From a virus: DNA of 24,075 nt. The position numbers were made by a program, and so were the translations under genes. The notes below the pieces were generated by a model. It searched no databases, was not told the origin of the DNA, and saw only the letters and a program-made list of their open reading frames with translations. Position 1 is the stretch's first letter. Each line of letters starts with the position of its first letter. Of this stretch, positions 4,798 through 14,771 are shown piece by piece. Location of the stretch: positions 1 to 24,075 of the IMG/VR virus record IMGVR_UViG_3300009788_000297; one strand, 5' to 3'.

Positions 4798-5019
4798 ATG
4801 CAGTTCGGCAAAATCAGGGATCTGACAGTTGAGCAAGCAACGGAAGTCCGGCAGATGCGATGCGACGACGGGTTCACATGGCGCATGGTCGCGTGCGAAT
4901 GCTTCGATCGATGGGGCGGTGACTGGTATCCACCGTCAAATCAGGGCATCGGGCAGGACATCTGCCAAGCCGCCGCGGCTTGCTTCGGCGAAAACCCCAA
5001 CGCCGCGCCGTGGAATTGA
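4798..5019 (+). CDS. Conserved-type small phage protein
   Basis: This is a 73-residue protein starting at ATG 4798, three bases after the previous stop. The pattern VRQMRCDDGFTWRMVACECFDRW, then YPPSNQGIGQDICQAAA and finally NAAPWN, recalls a small phage protein type with TWR-A, W-PPSNQ and a PWN end. I know that type by pattern but not by function. The first half could form a helix-turn-helix. Three cysteines occur but not in a clear metal-binding spacing. It belongs to the early rightward operon. Confidence 0.66.
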   Translation: MQFGKIRDLTVEQATEVRQMRCDDGFTWRMVACECFDRWGGDWYPPSNQGIGQDICQAAAACFGENPNAAPWN

Positions 5020-6069: not shown

Positions 6070-6111
6070 AAAGCTGCGGCGCTGGCGTACCACCAAACGA
6101 AAGGGCGAATC

Positions 6112-6432
6112 ATGGCGAACGCATTTGAAATTGTGGAAAACGTTGCAGGGCGCATAGGAGCCCAGATCGAGTCCCGAGAACCACCGGGCGAACGGGCGAT
6201 GGCCCGGTGGGCCGAATTACTTCGCGAGGCTCTGGCCTGCCCGGTCAACGACAAGCCGAGGATCAAGATCACGATCGCGAAGAAAGACAAAGCCTATCTC
6301 GAGATCAACGGCGTCGCGATCCCGTGCCTCTCGCTCGACGTCTTACAGAATGCACGCGGTGGGAGAAGCTACCGGATCGAGATCCACTCTTGCGCGGTCA
6401 GTGAGCTCGCCGTGGAAGACGGTGCGACATGA
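6112..6432 (+). CDS. Unknown small protein
   Basis: This is a 106-residue protein starting at ATG 6112, with the strong site GAAAGGGCGA just upstream. The N-terminal half is helical (ERAMARWAELLREAL) and the C-terminal half is beta-rich (RIKITIAKKDKAYLEINGVAIP, then YRIEIHSCAV). It has the look of a small accessory phage protein with two sub-domains. I do not recognise it. Its stop overlaps the next start by ATGA, so it is coupled to the zinc-ribbon protein gene. Confidence 0.62.
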   Translation: MANAFEIVENVAGRIGAQIESREPPGERAMARWAELLREALACPVNDKPRIKITIAKKDKAYLEINGVAIPCLSLDVLQNARGGRSYRIEIHSCAVSELAVEDGAT

Positions 6433-8082: not shown

Positions 8083-9330
8083 GTGCATTGGGATAGCCCC
8101 TACGAACCCCAGCCCCACCAGGCTCGATTTCACGCCGCGCAGGCGAAGGGAAAGCTTTTCCTTGGCGGCGTCGGCGCGGGCAAGACGCTCACCGGAATCC
8201 ACGAAGCCGTCTATTTGATGGAGGACAATCCCCGGTGCGACGGTGCGATCGTTTCGCCCACCTTCCCCATGCTCCGCGACGTGATCGTTCCGCTCTGGGA
8301 AGAGTGGATCCACCCGAGTCTCTACACCCACAAGAAAAGCGATCAGTGTTTCATTTGGCACCCGACGGGGCGCCGGATCTTCCTTCGCTCCGCAGACAGC
8401 CCCGGTAGATTCTCCGGGCTCAACCTGGCGTGGGCCTGGCTCGACGAAGCCGCGATCCTTCTCAAGGCGAAGGTGTGGCGCATCATGCAGGCGCGCATCC
8501 GTGACCCGCGCGCTGTGCGCCGATGCGTCTACGCGACGACCACCCCCGACGGATACAACTGGCTGGTGAAGCTCTTCAAAAAGGAAGGGTTCGTTGTTCG
8601 CGCCAGGACCGCCGACAACAAGAAACTGCCCGACGACTTCGAGCCCGGCTTGCGCGCGAGCTACGGCGAAGAGATGGCCGCCCAGTATCTCGACGCGGAG
8701 ATCTTCGACCTGGCGGGCGTGGCCTGGCCCGTGGTCCCCGGCATTCACTGCTCTTTCACGGAAGCGTGGGCGCGCTCTAACTGCCGCAACTTCTTCGGTG
8801 GGACGGACTTCGGCCACACGAACCCCGCCGCCCATGTCGTTGGTGGCTTCGACGGTGACGGCCGCGCCTATCTGGTGGACCTCTGGTACAAGCGCGGCAA
8901 GACCCGAGCACAGATTGCCAGGAAGGGCCGGGAGTTGACCGACAAATGGGGGGTCCGGCGCTGGTACACGGACCATGATCCCGAGGGCGTGGCCGAGATG
9001 AAGAAGGCCGGTTGCGCGGTCCAGCTCGCGGAGAAGGGAAAGGGCAGCGTTGAAAGCGGCGTTCAATACGTTCGAGGCCTGCTCGCTGTGCGACACGACG
9101 GGCAGCCGCGCCTGCACATCGGCGAATGGCTCCACGACTGGCACCGCGAGCAGGACGCCTATCGATTCCCGGAAGACAGCGAAGAGCCGAAGGGCGAAGA
9201 CGGCGATCACGCGATGGACGCCACGCGTTACTTGCTGTACACGCACCACCTGACCCACACCCCGTTTGCATATCGGGGATCGGGCCGTGCTAGGATGGAC
9301 TCCGGCGGTCGTGAAGGCGAGCGCTTCTAG
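8083..9330 (+). CDS. terL: Terminase large subunit
   Basis: This is a 415-residue DNA-packaging motor. The ATPase half has Walker A GGVGAGKT at about residues 28-35 and Walker B WLDEA at about 119-123. The nuclease half has the RNase-H-like acidic residues D242 (GGTDFGHTNP), D297/D299 (YTDHDPEG) and D375/D379 (GDHAMDATRYL). It translocates DNA into the prohead through the portal and cuts the concatemer. GTG 8083 is the first usable start and has no ribosome site. A TGTTAGCCT element lies six bases upstream, so a leaderless mRNA is possible. The gene ends directly at the portal start. Because the enzyme has its own nuclease domain and a terminase partner, packaging does not depend on transposition. 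Confidence 0.94.
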   Translation: MHWDSPYEPQPHQARFHAAQAKGKLFLGGVGAGKTLTGIHEAVYLMEDNPRCDGAIVSPTFPMLRDVIVPLWEEWIHPSLYTHKKSDQCFIWHPTGRRIFLRSADSPGRFSGLNLAWAWLDEAAILLKAKVWRIMQARIRDPRAVRRCVYATTTPDGYNWLVKLFKKEGFVVRARTADNKKLPDDFEPGLRASYGEEMAAQYLDAEIFDLAGVAWPVVPGIHCSFTEAWARSNCRNFFGGTDFGHTNPAAHVVGGFDGDGRAYLVDLWYKRGKTRAQIARKGRELTDKWGVRRWYTDHDPEGVAEMKKAGCAVQLAEKGKGSVESGVQYVRGLLAVRHDGQPRLHIGEWLHDWHREQDAYRFPEDSEEPKGEDGDHAMDATRYLLYTHHLTHTPFAYRGSGRARMDSGGREGERF

Positions 9331-10821
9331 GTGAACATGGGAATCCGGGACAGCATCCGCCGAGGTCTTTCAGCCGCCGCAGAGCGCGGCATGTCCGCTC
9401 TCTCCCGATTCGCCCCCATCGTACCGAGCTCCGAGCTGGCCAAGTTCCCCGAGCAAGGCGTGTTCCTGTCGGGCAAGCGTGACGATTACGCATCGAACCT
9501 CGGCCGCCAGAAGGTCACCCCGGAGATCCTGGGCGATGCGCTGGCCGCCGCCGATCAGGGCGACACCGTCACGCAATACGAGATCTTCGAGAAGACCGAG
9601 CGCGATCCGAAGGTGGCGCGGCTCTACTTCCGACGCCGGACCATGGTCACCGGCAAGACCCTGATCATCGCGCCGGCCATCGAAGGCGACGCCAAGGCGG
9701 AGAAGGCTTCCGACCTCTGCAAAGAGATGCTCCTGGGCATCAACGGCCAGGGCGGCATCGAGAATTTCTCAGACGGGCTCTACGATCTGAGCGACGCGAT
9801 CGGTAAAGCGTTCGCCGTTTCGCAGGTCGCATGGGAGCAAGACGGCGGTCAGTTCGTGCCGCGCCGGTTCATAAGCTGGCCGCAAGTGCAGTTCAACCTC
9901 GGCGACCCGTCGGCGTTCGAAAAGCAAGATCACGATCGCGTGTTCATCAACACCGACGACGACACGCGCGGCAAGCCGCTCGACGAGTTCCCCGCGGGAC
10001 AGTGGCTCCTGCATCGCCACAAGCAGTTCAGTCAGCCGCTCGCCCGCGCTGCGATGTTCAGGAGCGTTGTCTGGTTCCAGATGTTCAAAACGTTCGGCTA
10101 CGGCGATCTGTCGATCTGGCTCGAGCGTTTCGGGATCCCGCCGCGCCAGGGCCGTTACGAGCCCGGCACACCGAAGGATGATCAGAACGCCCTGCTGAAA
10201 GCTGTCCGGGACATGGGCAAGGACCACTACGCGATCTTCCCGAACAACGGGACGATCGAGGTCCTGGAGATGAACGGCACGAAGGGTGAGGCCCCGCACC
10301 CGGTCATGATCAAGCACTGCAACGACGAGATCTCGGTTGTCATCATGGGCAACACGATGGCGACGACGCAGGGCGACAAGGGCGCGCGCTCGATCAAGGA
10401 AAGCTACCAGATCGAAGAGTACGAGCAGGCCGAGCACGATTCGGTGAAGCTCGCCGCGACCCTTCGCCTGCAGCTCTGCCGGCCAATGGTGATCGCGAAC
10501 CTGGGACCCGACTTTCCGATCCCGATCGTTCGTTTCGAGCTCGACGACATCGAAGATCTCCAGGTGGTCTCCGAGGTCGACGAACGACTCCAGGGCATGG
10601 GCTGGCCGGTGACCGCCGGTTACATCGCCGACAAGTACAAGCGCCCGCTGCCCGAGGGTGTCGAGCGTGACGAGGTTCTCACCCCGGGCGGCACGGCGAC
10701 AGAGGCCGAGGCTGCGTTCCGCGCGCTCCAGGATGAAAAAAAAAAGAGCTTGTCCTGGGTGATGTCGAGGCTCTCGCGACCCGCGGCGCCACCCGCGCGG
10801 TCCCGCCCTCCGAAGGGCTGA
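9331..10821 (+). CDS. Portal protein, Mu gp29-like
   Basis: This is a 496-residue protein in the zero frame, starting at GTG 9331 directly after the terminase stop (ATG 9337 is the alternative). It matches the Mu gp29 (DUF935) portal family throughout: KVARLYFRRRTMVTG, then WEQDGGQFVPRRF, GQWLLHRHK, FGYGDLSIWLERFGIPPRQG and NTMATTQGDKGARS. Portal rings sit at the capsid vertex and pass DNA. After residue about 470 the frame crosses an A10 run (10736-10745) and then encodes an unpromising Pro/Arg-rich tail. The minus-one frame instead continues in good coding sequence straight into the MuF-like protein. A fusion by frameshift, or a single missing A, is likely. Confidence 0.93.
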   Translation: MNMGIRDSIRRGLSAAAERGMSALSRFAPIVPSSELAKFPEQGVFLSGKRDDYASNLGRQKVTPEILGDALAAADQGDTVTQYEIFEKTERDPKVARLYFRRRTMVTGKTLIIAPAIEGDAKAEKASDLCKEMLLGINGQGGIENFSDGLYDLSDAIGKAFAVSQVAWEQDGGQFVPRRFISWPQVQFNLGDPSAFEKQDHDRVFINTDDDTRGKPLDEFPAGQWLLHRHKQFSQPLARAAMFRSVVWFQMFKTFGYGDLSIWLERFGIPPRQGRYEPGTPKDDQNALLKAVRDMGKDHYAIFPNNGTIEVLEMNGTKGEAPHPVMIKHCNDEISVVIMGNTMATTQGDKGARSIKESYQIEEYEQAEHDSVKLAATLRLQLCRPMVIANLGPDFPIPIVRFELDDIEDLQVVSEVDERLQGMGWPVTAGYIADKYKRPLPEGVERDEVLTPGGTATEAEAAFRALQDEKKKSLSWVMSRLSRPAAPPARSRPPKG

Positions 10822-11648
10822 ACGCCTCCCTTACAGCCCACGTCGTCAAGTCGGCATCCCTATCAGCAGCCTCGGCGTCGCTCGACGAAGCAGAGTGGGC
10901 CGACCGCAAAGAATACGAGCGGGTCACCTACGAAGAGACGCTGTTGGCGAACCTGCACGGCCGGGCAGAGGTCTTTCTGGACTTCAAGGGCCAGACGCAG
11001 TTCGCCATCTTCGATTGGGTGACACTGCCGTTCAAAGAGGCGATCGAAGAGTTCCTGAAGCGGTCGGTCATGAGCGCGCGGGCCTTCAAGCGGCTCACCG
11101 ATGCCATGCGGATCAAGGCGTTCACGATCGCCGGCGATCACAATCAGTACACCCGCCAGCGCGTGAAAGACTCGCTCGCCGACGCCATCGAGCTGGGCAT
11201 TCCGCAAGCGGAGTGGATCGCACAGACAGAGGGCATGTTTGACCGGATGGGCGTGACTGGCCGCGGCCGACACCACCTGGACACCGTTTTCGAGACCAAC
11301 GTTTTTGGCTCGTACCAGCATGGGCGGTTCCGCCAGCAGCAGTCGCCGGCGATCATCAAGGCTCGCCCGTTCCTGGTGTATCGCACCGTTGGCGATGACA
11401 ATGTGCGCGATTCCCATAAGGCCATGGAAGGCTTCACCGCGCAGCGCGATCACCAGATCTGGGGCACGTGGTATCCCACAAACGGTTTCCGCTGCCGGTG
11501 CCGCGTCGACGCCATTTCAAAGCGCGTCGCTGAGAAGCGCGGGATCGCCTCGGCCAGCTCGAGCCGCGGCGTGGATCCGGACGAAGGTTTCGCGAGCAAC
11601 CCTGGCGCGTGGCTCGAAGAGCCGAAGAAGACACGCCGCAAGCGTTGA
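10737..11648 (+). CDS. MuF-like head morphogenesis protein (minus-one frame after portal)
   Basis: The frame is open from 10737, after a TGA at 10734, to the stop at 11648. Its first conventional start is TTG 10944, with no ribosome site, giving 234 residues. The 5' extension reads as normal protein (LDEAEWADRKEYERVTYEETL), so the real product probably begins upstream by minus-one frameshift at the A10 run and is a portal-MuF fusion of about 772 residues. The C-terminal domain carries the Mu F-like signature VRDSHKAMEG, then WYPTNGFRCRCRVDAIS. MuF proteins are minor head proteins attached to the portal and sometimes ejected with the DNA. The family call is firm. The start is uncertain, with 10944 as the minimal alternative. 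Confidence 0.84.
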   Translation, partial: KKKELVLGDVEALATRGATRAVPPSEGLNASLTAHVVKSASLSAASASLDEAEWADRKEYERVTYEETLLANLHGRAEVFLDFKGQTQFAIFDWVTLPFKEAIEEFLKRSVMSARAFKRLTDAMRIKAFTIAGDHNQYTRQRVKDSLADAIELGIPQAEWIAQTEGMFDRMGVTGRGRHHLDTVFETNVFGSYQHGRFRQQQSPAIIKARPFLVYRTVGDDNVRDSHKAMEGFTAQRDHQIWGTWYPTNGFRCRCRVDAISKRVAEKRGIASASSSRGVDPDEGFASNPGAWLEEPKKTRRKR

Positions 11649-11764: not shown

Positions 11765-11794
11765 TTGACAGATCGCATTGCGCGCGCCTGTAAT
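11765..11794 (+). promoter_or_regulatory. Promoter for the capsid gene cluster
   Basis: A perfect TTGACA (11765-11770), an 18-base spacer and TGTAAT (11789-11794, five of six matches) lie right after a terminator. The expected start point coincides with the GTG of the protease gene. Confidence 0.65.
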
Positions 11795-11801
11795 GTCCCC
11801 C

Positions 11802-12962
11802 GTGACCCCCGCCGAAAAGCTAGCCAGGATTCTCGCCAAGTCGAAGTTTGCGATCCTTGACGGAATCGCACTCGCCGATCAGGAGCTTCCCACGGCGATC
11901 GGCGACGTGTCCTGGCATCTGGTCGCGCTCGAGGGCGCCTGGAAAGGCCACTGGCAGGGGCCCTTCCGGATCACGAGCGACACGCTGCAGAGCATGGCCG
12001 ACCACTTCGACGCGCGGAAGATCCCGCTCGTGGTCGACTACGAACACCAGTCTCTGACGATGGACCGTGCGCCGGCGGCTGGCTGGATCAACGAGCTGGA
12101 CCTTCGAACGAACGACAAGGGCGGCAAGGAGCTCTGGGCGCGCACCGAATGGACCGAGCGGGGCGCAGCCTATATCCGGGCCAAGGAATATCGCTACAAG
12201 AGCCCAACCATCAACTGGCAAACCCGGGACCGCGTGAGCGGAAAGGTCAGCGGCGCATCGCTTCACAGCGTCGCCCTGACGAACCACCCGTTCCTGCACG
12301 AGTTGCCCGAAGTCACTCTAAACAGCATGGCTGGCGCGCTGGCGCTGGTCGAGCCCGAGACGGAGCAAGAGACCATGGACGAGACGCAGATCAAAGAGCT
12401 TCGCAAAATCCTCGGGCTGGCCGATGACGCCGATGCCGATGCCATCGCCGACGCGGTCAAGGCGCTGCACATCAGCGGCAAGACGCTGGGCGAGGTCTTC
12501 GCCGCGCTGGGCGACAAGGTCAAGGACATCGCCGCCGCCAAGGCCGAGATCCTGACCCTGACCACGCGGTCAACGGCGGCCGACGGTTCGGCTGAGCGGA
12601 TCGCGTCCATGGAGGCCACGATCAAGGGCTTCAAGGACACCGAGGACAAGAAGACCGCGCTCGAGCTGGTGCGCAAGTACCAGGCGGCGCGCAAGGTCGG
12701 CGCCGACGGTACCGACAACTTCAAGGCGTGCCTGAAGCATGCCGAGGCCGATCCCGTGGGCTTCGCAGCCATCATGGATACCTCAGAGCCCTGGGTGGCC
12801 GGTGGTGAGCAGGTCGCCGAGACGCATCGGCGCGAGGGCACGATCGGCGGCACGGCTCCGAAGACGCTCGCCGACCTGAACCCGGCCCAGCTCGCCGCGG
12901 CGCAGTCTGCGGGCCTGACCGACGAAGACATCGAGAAGCACGGCGCCGAGTTCGTAAACTAG
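11802..12962 (+). CDS. Mu I-like prohead protease and scaffold
   Basis: This is a 386-residue protein if it starts at GTG 11802. ATG 11793 and TTG 11778 are in frame but lie inside the promoter. No start has a ribosome site, and the promoter predicts transcription beginning at or next to the GTG, so a leaderless mRNA is likely. The N-terminal domain (about residues 1-170) matches the Mu gpI protease, with WHLVALEGAWKGHWQGPF, then PLVVDYEHQSLT, AAGWINELDLR, YRYKSPTINW and HSVALTNHPFL. The C-terminal part is charged and helical, like a scaffold. The protease would cleave scaffold and capsid proteins during head maturation. It is followed at once by the decoration and capsid genes. Confidence 0.87.
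   Translation: MTPAEKLARILAKSKFAILDGIALADQELPTAIGDVSWHLVALEGAWKGHWQGPFRITSDTLQSMADHFDARKIPLVVDYEHQSLTMDRAPAAGWINELDLRTNDKGGKELWARTEWTERGAAYIRAKEYRYKSPTINWQTRDRVSGKVSGASLHSVALTNHPFLHELPEVTLNSMAGALALVEPETEQETMDETQIKELRKILGLADDADADAIADAVKALHISGKTLGEVFAALGDKVKDIAAAKAEILTLTTRSTAADGSAERIASMEATIKGFKDTEDKKTALELVRKYQAARKVGADGTDNFKACLKHAEADPVGFAAIMDTSEPWVAGGEQVAETHRREGTIGGTAPKTLADLNPAQLAAAQSAGLTDEDIEKHGAEFVN
12375..12962 (+). CDS. Probable nested scaffold protein (in-frame internal start)
   Basis: ATG 12375 lies in the same frame as the protease, with GGAG nine bases upstream, and follows a Pro/Glu-rich junction (VEPETEQET). It would make a separate 195-residue C-terminal product. The product is helical and charged (EIKELRKILGLADD-like repeats, then GERIASMEATIKG-type heptads) and ends KHGAEFVN. 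In Mu the scaffold Z is made in just this way from within gene I. Free scaffold in excess over protease is needed to shape the prohead. The site and position support it. Only N-terminal sequencing or proteomics would prove a separate start. Confidence 0.55.
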   Translation: MDETQIKELRKILGLADDADADAIADAVKALHISGKTLGEVFAALGDKVKDIAAAKAEILTLTTRSTAADGSAERIASMEATIKGFKDTEDKKTALELVRKYQAARKVGADGTDNFKACLKHAEADPVGFAAIMDTSEPWVAGGEQVAETHRREGTIGGTAPKTLADLNPAQLAAAQSAGLTDEDIEKHGAEFVN

Positions 12963-13856: not shown

Positions 13857-14771
13857 ATGCTCGAACGCGACAAAATGAGGGCGGCCAGTCAGACGTTCCG
13901 CTTGATCTTCAAGCGCTCGCTCCAGAACAGCAATCTGCCGAAGCACGTCCAGGACGCGATGTTGCTGGCCGAGGAGTTCAGCACCACCGCATTCGTTTCC
14001 AAGATGCGCTGGTGGACCTCGGCGCCGATCATGCGCCACTGGCTCGGGCCACGCGTCCATCGCGAGCTCGAGGCCGAGGGCTTCGACGTGACGCTCAAGC
14101 CGTTCGAGTCGACCGTCGACGTCAAGCGCGATGACATCATGTTCGACCTTCTGGCGGGCTACACCAAGGGCATCCAGCAGATGGCCCGCGAGGTCATGCT
14201 GCTGACCTACCGCCGGATCCTCGAAGTCATCATGGACGGCTTCGCCGGCGCCACCTACCTGTGCTTCGACGGTGAGCCGCTGTTCGACGACTCGCACACG
14301 TTCGGCGACAACAAGAGCAATCTGGTGCTCGATGTCGCCGGGACCGCGCTCGATACGGCCAAGGTGGCGATGGCCGGCTTCACCGATCCGGTCACCGGCG
14401 ATCAGCTCGGCATCAGGCCGACGCACCTGTGGCACCACACGGCGCTCTTGCCGACCGTGACGAAGTTGCTCGGCCGCTCGGAGCTGTCGGGCGGCGGGAC
14501 GAACCAGCATTTCGGCACGCTGGCGCCGCTCGAGCTGGACCTCGGCAGCGGAAAGACGGGCTGGTGGGGAATCGCCTCCCTCGGAGCTGGCGAGCCCATG
14601 AAGCCGCTCGCCGTCTTCAAGCACCCGCGCGCCCCAGGCCTGATCGCCGCCGACGCCGAGACGGACAAGCTGAACTTCGAAGAGCGGATCATCGTCTACG
14701 GTACCGAGGCGTGGCGCACGGAATCGTGTGGGATGCCGATGTACATCTGGGGGTCCGACGGCTCCGCGTAA
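13857..14771 (+). CDS. Major capsid protein, Mu T-like
   Basis: This is a 304-residue protein starting at ATG 13857 behind AAGGGAG. It matches the Mu gpT major head family: MRAASQTFRLIFKRSLQ, then WWTSAPIMRHWLGPR, DVKRDDIMFDLL, YLCFDGEPLFDDSHTFG, THLWHHTALLP and a C-terminal ERIIVYGTEAWRTE. It builds the icosahedral shell around the scaffold and should be the most abundant virion protein. A strong terminator directly after it would limit read-through into the lower-copy connector and tail genes. No sign of truncation is seen; the length is typical. Confidence 0.92.
   Translation: MLERDKMRAASQTFRLIFKRSLQNSNLPKHVQDAMLLAEEFSTTAFVSKMRWWTSAPIMRHWLGPRVHRELEAEGFDVTLKPFESTVDVKRDDIMFDLLAGYTKGIQQMAREVMLLTYRRILEVIMDGFAGATYLCFDGEPLFDDSHTFGDNKSNLVLDVAGTALDTAKVAMAGFTDPVTGDQLGIRPTHLWHHTALLPTVTKLLGRSELSGGGTNQHFGTLAPLELDLGSGKTGWWGIASLGAGEPMKPLAVFKHPRAPGLIAADAETDKLNFEERIIVYGTEAWRTESCGMPMYIWGSDGSA

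Follow-up and report, generated by a model that had tools for sequence, protein, structure and literature searches.

An adenine run at the portal–MuF junction of a Mu-like phage is a candidate site of RNA polymerase slippage

It is not obvious how a phage would fit a few extra domains, fixed in number, onto the twelve-subunit ring of its portal, the DNA gate of the head. SPP1 gp7 and similar MuF proteins occur as one or two copies bound to the portal within the head (PMC5576092). In the virus record IMGVR_UViG_3300009788_000297 (24,075 bases; this whole stretch of DNA is termed the window throughout), a Mu-type portal gene and a MuF gene lie in different reading frames that meet within a run of ten adenines. 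Sequence comparison suggests that a stretch of some nine to ten adenines, present in the window phage and in roughly 60 lineages of more distant alphaproteobacterial phages, allows a single gene to yield a short portal as well as one fused to MuF.

The window carries a Mu-like head block, recognized from its open reading frames and from Pfam profiles (Table 1). Its portal belongs to the Mu-type family, with PF06074 matching residues 83–437 at an E-value of 2.8e-67 and a score of 227.9 bits against a curated cut-off of 23.9. The gene that adjoins the portal is a MuF gene, as PF04233 matches the −1 frame at an E-value of 6.7e-14 with 53 bits against a cut-off of 29.6; the profile search matched PF04233 alone, and no PBECR2 domain was found after the window MuF. 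At 932–1690 on the minus strand, a DNA methylase (PF01555) appears to be divided between two frames, the break lying away from any long homopolymer, and is either a decayed gene or the product of an assembly indel error.

Table 1. Head-block genes of the window and features of its portal–MuF junction
Feature	Position	Strand	Basis
Large terminase	8083–9330		ORFs, profile search
Mu-type portal gene, unshifted frame, 496 aa	9331–10821	+	ORF; PF06074 match
TGA closing the −1 frame directly 5' of the run	10734–10736	+	−1 frame translation
A10 slippage site (candidate), containing A_AAA_AAG at 10740–10746	10736–10745	+	Assembly sequence
Open −1 frame: portal C-terminal domain and MuF	10737–11648	+	Translation
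First part of the −1 frame, positional counterpart of the portal C-terminal helical domain	10746–10970	+	Portal-tail alignment; codon usage
Unshifted portal tail after the run, poor coding potential	10747–10821	+	Codon log-likelihood −12.2 in the portal frame
First conventional start in the −1 frame, TTG	10944–10946	+	SD pairing energy −2.9 (weak)
MuF domain	11157–11507	+	PF04233, residues 139–255 of window:10743-11645
Mu-like protease	11778–12962		ORFs, profile search
Mu gpT-like capsid	13857–14771		ORFs, profile search

The run itself exceeds chance expectation: it is the sole A or T homopolymer of seven or more in the window, and 8-A matches were observed three times (overlapping) against 0.16 expected. 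The portal frame crosses it as GAT GAA AAA AAA AAG AGC, GAGC following directly on the tenth adenine, and continues for 25 codons to its stop, whilst the −1 frame is open from within the run through the whole of MuF. Since a TGA closes the −1 frame directly 5' of the run, the MuF frame can be reached from the portal only inside the adenines. By codon usage the portal frame is the better coding frame as far as the run, and beyond it the −1 frame takes over, with log-likelihoods over 10747–10943 of +26 (−1 frame), −31 (zero frame) and −44 (third frame). An earlier note, made from the sequence alone, had described the A10 run followed by GAG and the A_AAA_AAG heptamer within it, and had proposed that a −1 slip opens straight into MuF to give a fusion of about 772 residues. 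The sequence reads as described, the computed product has 772 amino acids, and the observation that the run joins the two frames is confirmed. The note's reading of the 207 bases before TTG 10944 as protein, and of the zero-frame tail as unconvincing, likewise agrees with the codon statistics.

A point that the earlier note had missed lies in what the −1 frame encodes before MuF. Alignment with the portal tails of relatives places the start of this frame opposite their C-terminal helical domain, so that the unshifted window product would apparently be a portal without its last domain, and the shifted product would consist of the portal core, the C-terminal domain and MuF. The match is one of position; a profile of the portal C-terminal domain scored the window −1 frame weakly (4.8 bits, rank 9 of 2003 including shuffles), with 8 of 2000 shuffles outscoring it. 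The predicted structure of one in-frame fusion from a relative, L038, was poor (mean pLDDT 54.6), and its lysine stretch falls within a low-confidence region (439–488).

Relatives were gathered by scans of viral and genome contigs, their junctions were classified, and loci were clustered at 90% portal identity, with the window included in all totals. The junction run was found in 92 loci, or 61 clusters, made up of RcapMu-type phages of alphaproteobacteria and the window, and its length is nearly constant (A9 in 86 loci, A8 in three and A10 in three). In 490 kb of representative sequence, 61 of the 62 runs of at least eight adenines are the junction run. Lysine elsewhere in these portals is mostly encoded by AAG (877 codons vs 339 of AAA), so the all-A stretch is not a matter of codon bias, and A9 is retained in two codon registers (CTC AAA AAA AAA C.. 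and GTA AAA AAA AAC). Among phages in GenBank, the portal of RcapMu, Rhizobium RR1-B and EBPR siphovirus 4 ends at A8–A9 with MuF open in −1 across the run, and RcWaterboi carries an A9 run there. In 46 of the 61 clusters the portal and MuF frames differ, MuF being in −1 in all but one of these; in the other 15 (L085 counted) it is in frame with the portal and the run is still present. The earlier note had suggested that homologues be compared for a conserved A-run, and in the related phage group the answer is strongly positive: a conserved run with two meaningful predicted products is found in the alphaproteobacterial phages.

Some loci in this set have peculiarities of their own. Only L016 (about 4875–4882) combines A8 with a MuF in +1 rather than −1, which may reflect an indel within the run or a sequencing error. 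The in-frame portal–MuF of L085 has a second frame break near its C-terminal end (about 6100–6245), away from the A9. RcapMu's depositors also flag another possible −1 frameshift in RcapMu35 (L006:1343), a small gene that precedes the portal.

In the 15 in-frame clusters the −1 frame meets a stop at a median of 3 codons, 13 of the 15 within 5 codons vs 17% at control positions (p 6e-9, in tests that count clusters as independent whereas they are partly related), and the other shifted frame does so at a median of 7 codons (control 28), so that slipping in these genomes would end the protein. Where MuF is out of frame, the zero frame ends a median of 1 codon after the run, and 98% of these genomes meet a third-frame stop in the first 12 codons, as against 33% at control positions, although in one subgroup this stop may stem from conserved residues. 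Sister phages change their frame arrangement mostly through small indels beside an intact run: L033/L086 and L035/L038 are separated by a two-base difference upstream of an intact A9, and L052 and L061 by an indel downstream of the run, whilst in the pair L044/L185 the difference (A9/A8) is inside it. At least six gains or losses of the in-frame state fall on well-supported branches of the portal tree. Taken with the sister indels, this indicates that the run is retained while the frame around it drifts. The run's persistence in in-frame clusters, the stops in the shifted frames and the indels beside the run together suggest that both the run and the making of two products are under selection.

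These observations bear on how MuF is translated and on which machine, if any, slips. Two separate proteins could be made, namely a short portal and a MuF begun at TTG 10944 by re-initiation or coupling. The nearest relatives of the window do have separate genes, with MuF starting near the equivalent place, and a small alphaproteobacterial clade (L060, L062, L065, L066) uses MuF's own start; these four, and L070, are without the run, their MuF start overlaps the portal stop, and the portal-type helical region forms the N-terminus of MuF. The TTG of the window, however, has an SD pairing of −2.9 vs about −8 to −11 in several relatives (the earlier note had called it the first conventional start, with no ribosome site), it lies 120 bases past the portal stop, and the −1 frame 5' of it reads as coding, all of which makes separate proteins improbable here; they would also leave the run unexplained. 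Amongst run-bearing out-of-frame genomes too, SD pairing at MuF-frame starts is weak (median −4.2), and only 9% of these starts reach −7 or below vs 35% of portal starts. It seems from these comparisons that the run and an own MuF start replace each other, and that the short portal is a working form. If a fusion is made, the same chain could arise from mRNA of genomic length through a −1 ribosomal shift of the dnaX type on A_AAA_AAG, which the earlier note had named as the signal. Slippery A heptamers sit in register in the window, as A_AAA_AAG, and in nearly all relatives, most cases having either A_AAA_AAG or A_AAA_AAA, and such a shift would directly explain why 45 of the 46 out-of-frame clusters have MuF in −1. 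However, the relatives retain nine adenines whichever of the two registers they use, although a ribosome would need only seven in a single register, and early stops are found in the third frame as well, which is out of reach of a −1 shift. In E. coli dnaX, which shares the heptamer and the direction, the frameshift is stimulated by an upstream SD and a downstream stem-loop, and neither has a conserved counterpart here. An SD-like motif 4–18 bases 5' of the run was found in none of the 61 clusters (background 15%), and no conserved RNA structure or stem-loop was found at the junction among relatives. The AGGA to which the earlier note had drawn attention is indeed present, at 10730–10733 (3–6 bases 5' of the run, at the edge of the 4–18 search range), but it is not common to the relatives. 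The run has the length looked for in slippage sites, an A or T homopolymer of about nine or more in a coding region (A10 in the window, A9 in nearly all loci). Early stops close every frame but the one that encodes MuF, as would suit a mixture of transcript lengths, whereas a −1 ribosomal shift uses two frames. The lack of a conserved SD or structure, a run length independent of codon register and stops in both other frames thus fit polymerase slippage better, and the evidence favours it over the ribosomal shift, which is rather unlikely. Of the earlier proposal of recoding, the −1 portal–MuF fusion beside a shorter unshifted portal is upheld; the dnaX-type ribosomal signal as its likeliest mechanism is not. 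We consider it likely that the A10 run is a programmed site of RNA polymerase slippage at a domain boundary of one portal–MuF unit from which both products are made.

The window stands apart from the group in which the run is conserved. Single-protein scans with portal, TerL and MuF yielded no close relatives; the nearest, from wider portal alignments, have 30–35% identity and mostly separate genes, and none of them has an A-run at the junction. Thirty further Pseudomonadota portals had no junction run, and the A8 runs of L263 and L280 lie inside MuF. Many Pseudomonadota genomes (several of L258–L283) have Mu-type portals of only about 390–450 codons with no MuF found within the fetched flank. 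A quick tree groups the window, on a very long branch, with Mushu-type phages (support 100) and outside the A9 clade; in Mushu-type phages the portal and MuF genes are mostly separate. The window's run is therefore probably an independent case, and the evidence for run conservation, which comes from the alphaproteobacterial relatives, is stronger than that from the window itself. The best match of the window MuF (39%) is in L171, which has an in-frame portal–MuF–PBECR2 fusion (L171:245-2890) without any A-run of six or more. In-frame portal–MuF genes thus exist without a run as well as with one (15 clusters), and were a single A missing from the assembly, the window would hold a plain in-frame fusion; the methylase also appears frameshifted, so that an assembly indel error is possible. 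Nevertheless, the related group more often has A8–A10 with MuF in −1, and a plain fusion is improbable for the window. The earlier note had held that an eleventh A would reduce the locus to such a fusion; this is no clear-cut argument against recoding, as many in-frame relatives keep A9 together with early stops in the shifted frames. A true A11 would place the window in this in-frame class, and it would probably still slip. It could also be supposed that replication slippage alters the genomic run length and so switches MuF on and off by phase variation. Long homopolymers can mutate in this way, and the runs of L044 and L185 do differ, but with the run length nearly constant (A9 in 86 of 92 loci) and frame changes arising mostly from indels beside the run, phase variation is judged highly unlikely.

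Under the mechanism proposed here, RNA polymerase would slip on the A-run and so produce transcripts with a spread of run lengths. Unslipped transcripts would give a portal that ends shortly after the run, without the C-terminal domain, and those with one extra A would give the 772-residue chain of portal core, C-terminal domain and MuF; those in the third frame would stop within a few codons and give a near-identical short portal. The short and fused forms would co-assemble in the portal ring, where some subunits would bring MuF into the head. The frequency of slippage would set the ratio of short portal to fusion, and if a minority of transcripts slipped, a few of the twelve subunits would carry MuF toward the head interior. 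Three elements of this scheme are what we infer from the pattern: the occurrence of slippage in vivo, RNA polymerase and not the ribosome as the machine that slips, and a ring that contains both proteins. Some MuF proteins carry toxin-like domains that are thought to be injected. In the alphaproteobacterial group the MuF of L006 and of L038 bears a PBECR2 nuclease domain, and slippage may therefore also set the dose of this nuclease.

The lambda-type tail assembly chaperone (gpG/gpGT) is made as a longer fusion at a set ratio by recoding; as here, phage structural genes yield a longer recoded fusion, but these are tail genes with a ribosomal signal rather than a head portal and MuF. For slippage by RNA polymerase the precedents are Thermus thermophilus dnaX, on an A9 run, and IS elements (PMC1088944). 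In Thermus dnaX, as here, an A9 run in a coding region allows one gene to give a long and a short protein, and slipping of the in-frame version ends the protein early, as in the in-frame loci; it is a cellular replication gene, unlike the phage genes, and its slippage was measured whereas ours is inferred. Citrobacter rodentium tssM1 slips on A11 (PMC4256274), the run lying just 5' of the stop so that one extra A restores a longer protein, and both forms are needed there; it differs from the present case in its longer run and in being a secretion-system protein, not a virion one. In-frame portal–MuF and portal–MuF–PBECR fusions have been described (PMC7302621, PMC5512222) that hold the same domains in one chain, but these are constitutive as described, with no slippage reported. 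For RcapMu (JN190960) the annotation already records that the portal is short, that a frameshift may be present and that the MuF start lacks a good ribosome site; the shift its depositors proposed is +1, and nothing in their record notes ties it to the A-run or to other phages. Within the literature searched, chiefly the main texts of openly available papers, no description of recoding at the portal–MuF junction came up. Programmed slippage and portal–MuF fusions are each already known, and the proposed slippage at the portal–MuF junction would be the new element.

There is perhaps an even chance that a slippage site setting the number of MuF-bearing portal subunits is a selected and widespread device of Mu-like phages, kept in or out of frame, coupled to PBECR2 in at least some alphaproteobacterial phages and evolved independently in the window lineage. 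If it is true, many prophage portal and MuF annotations would be wrong, with short portals taken as complete and MuF given starts without ribosome sites. For the placing of a set number of MuF domains on the portal, a mixed ring of short and MuF-bearing subunits made by slippage would be a simple answer, and one testable in RcapMu and RcWaterboi.
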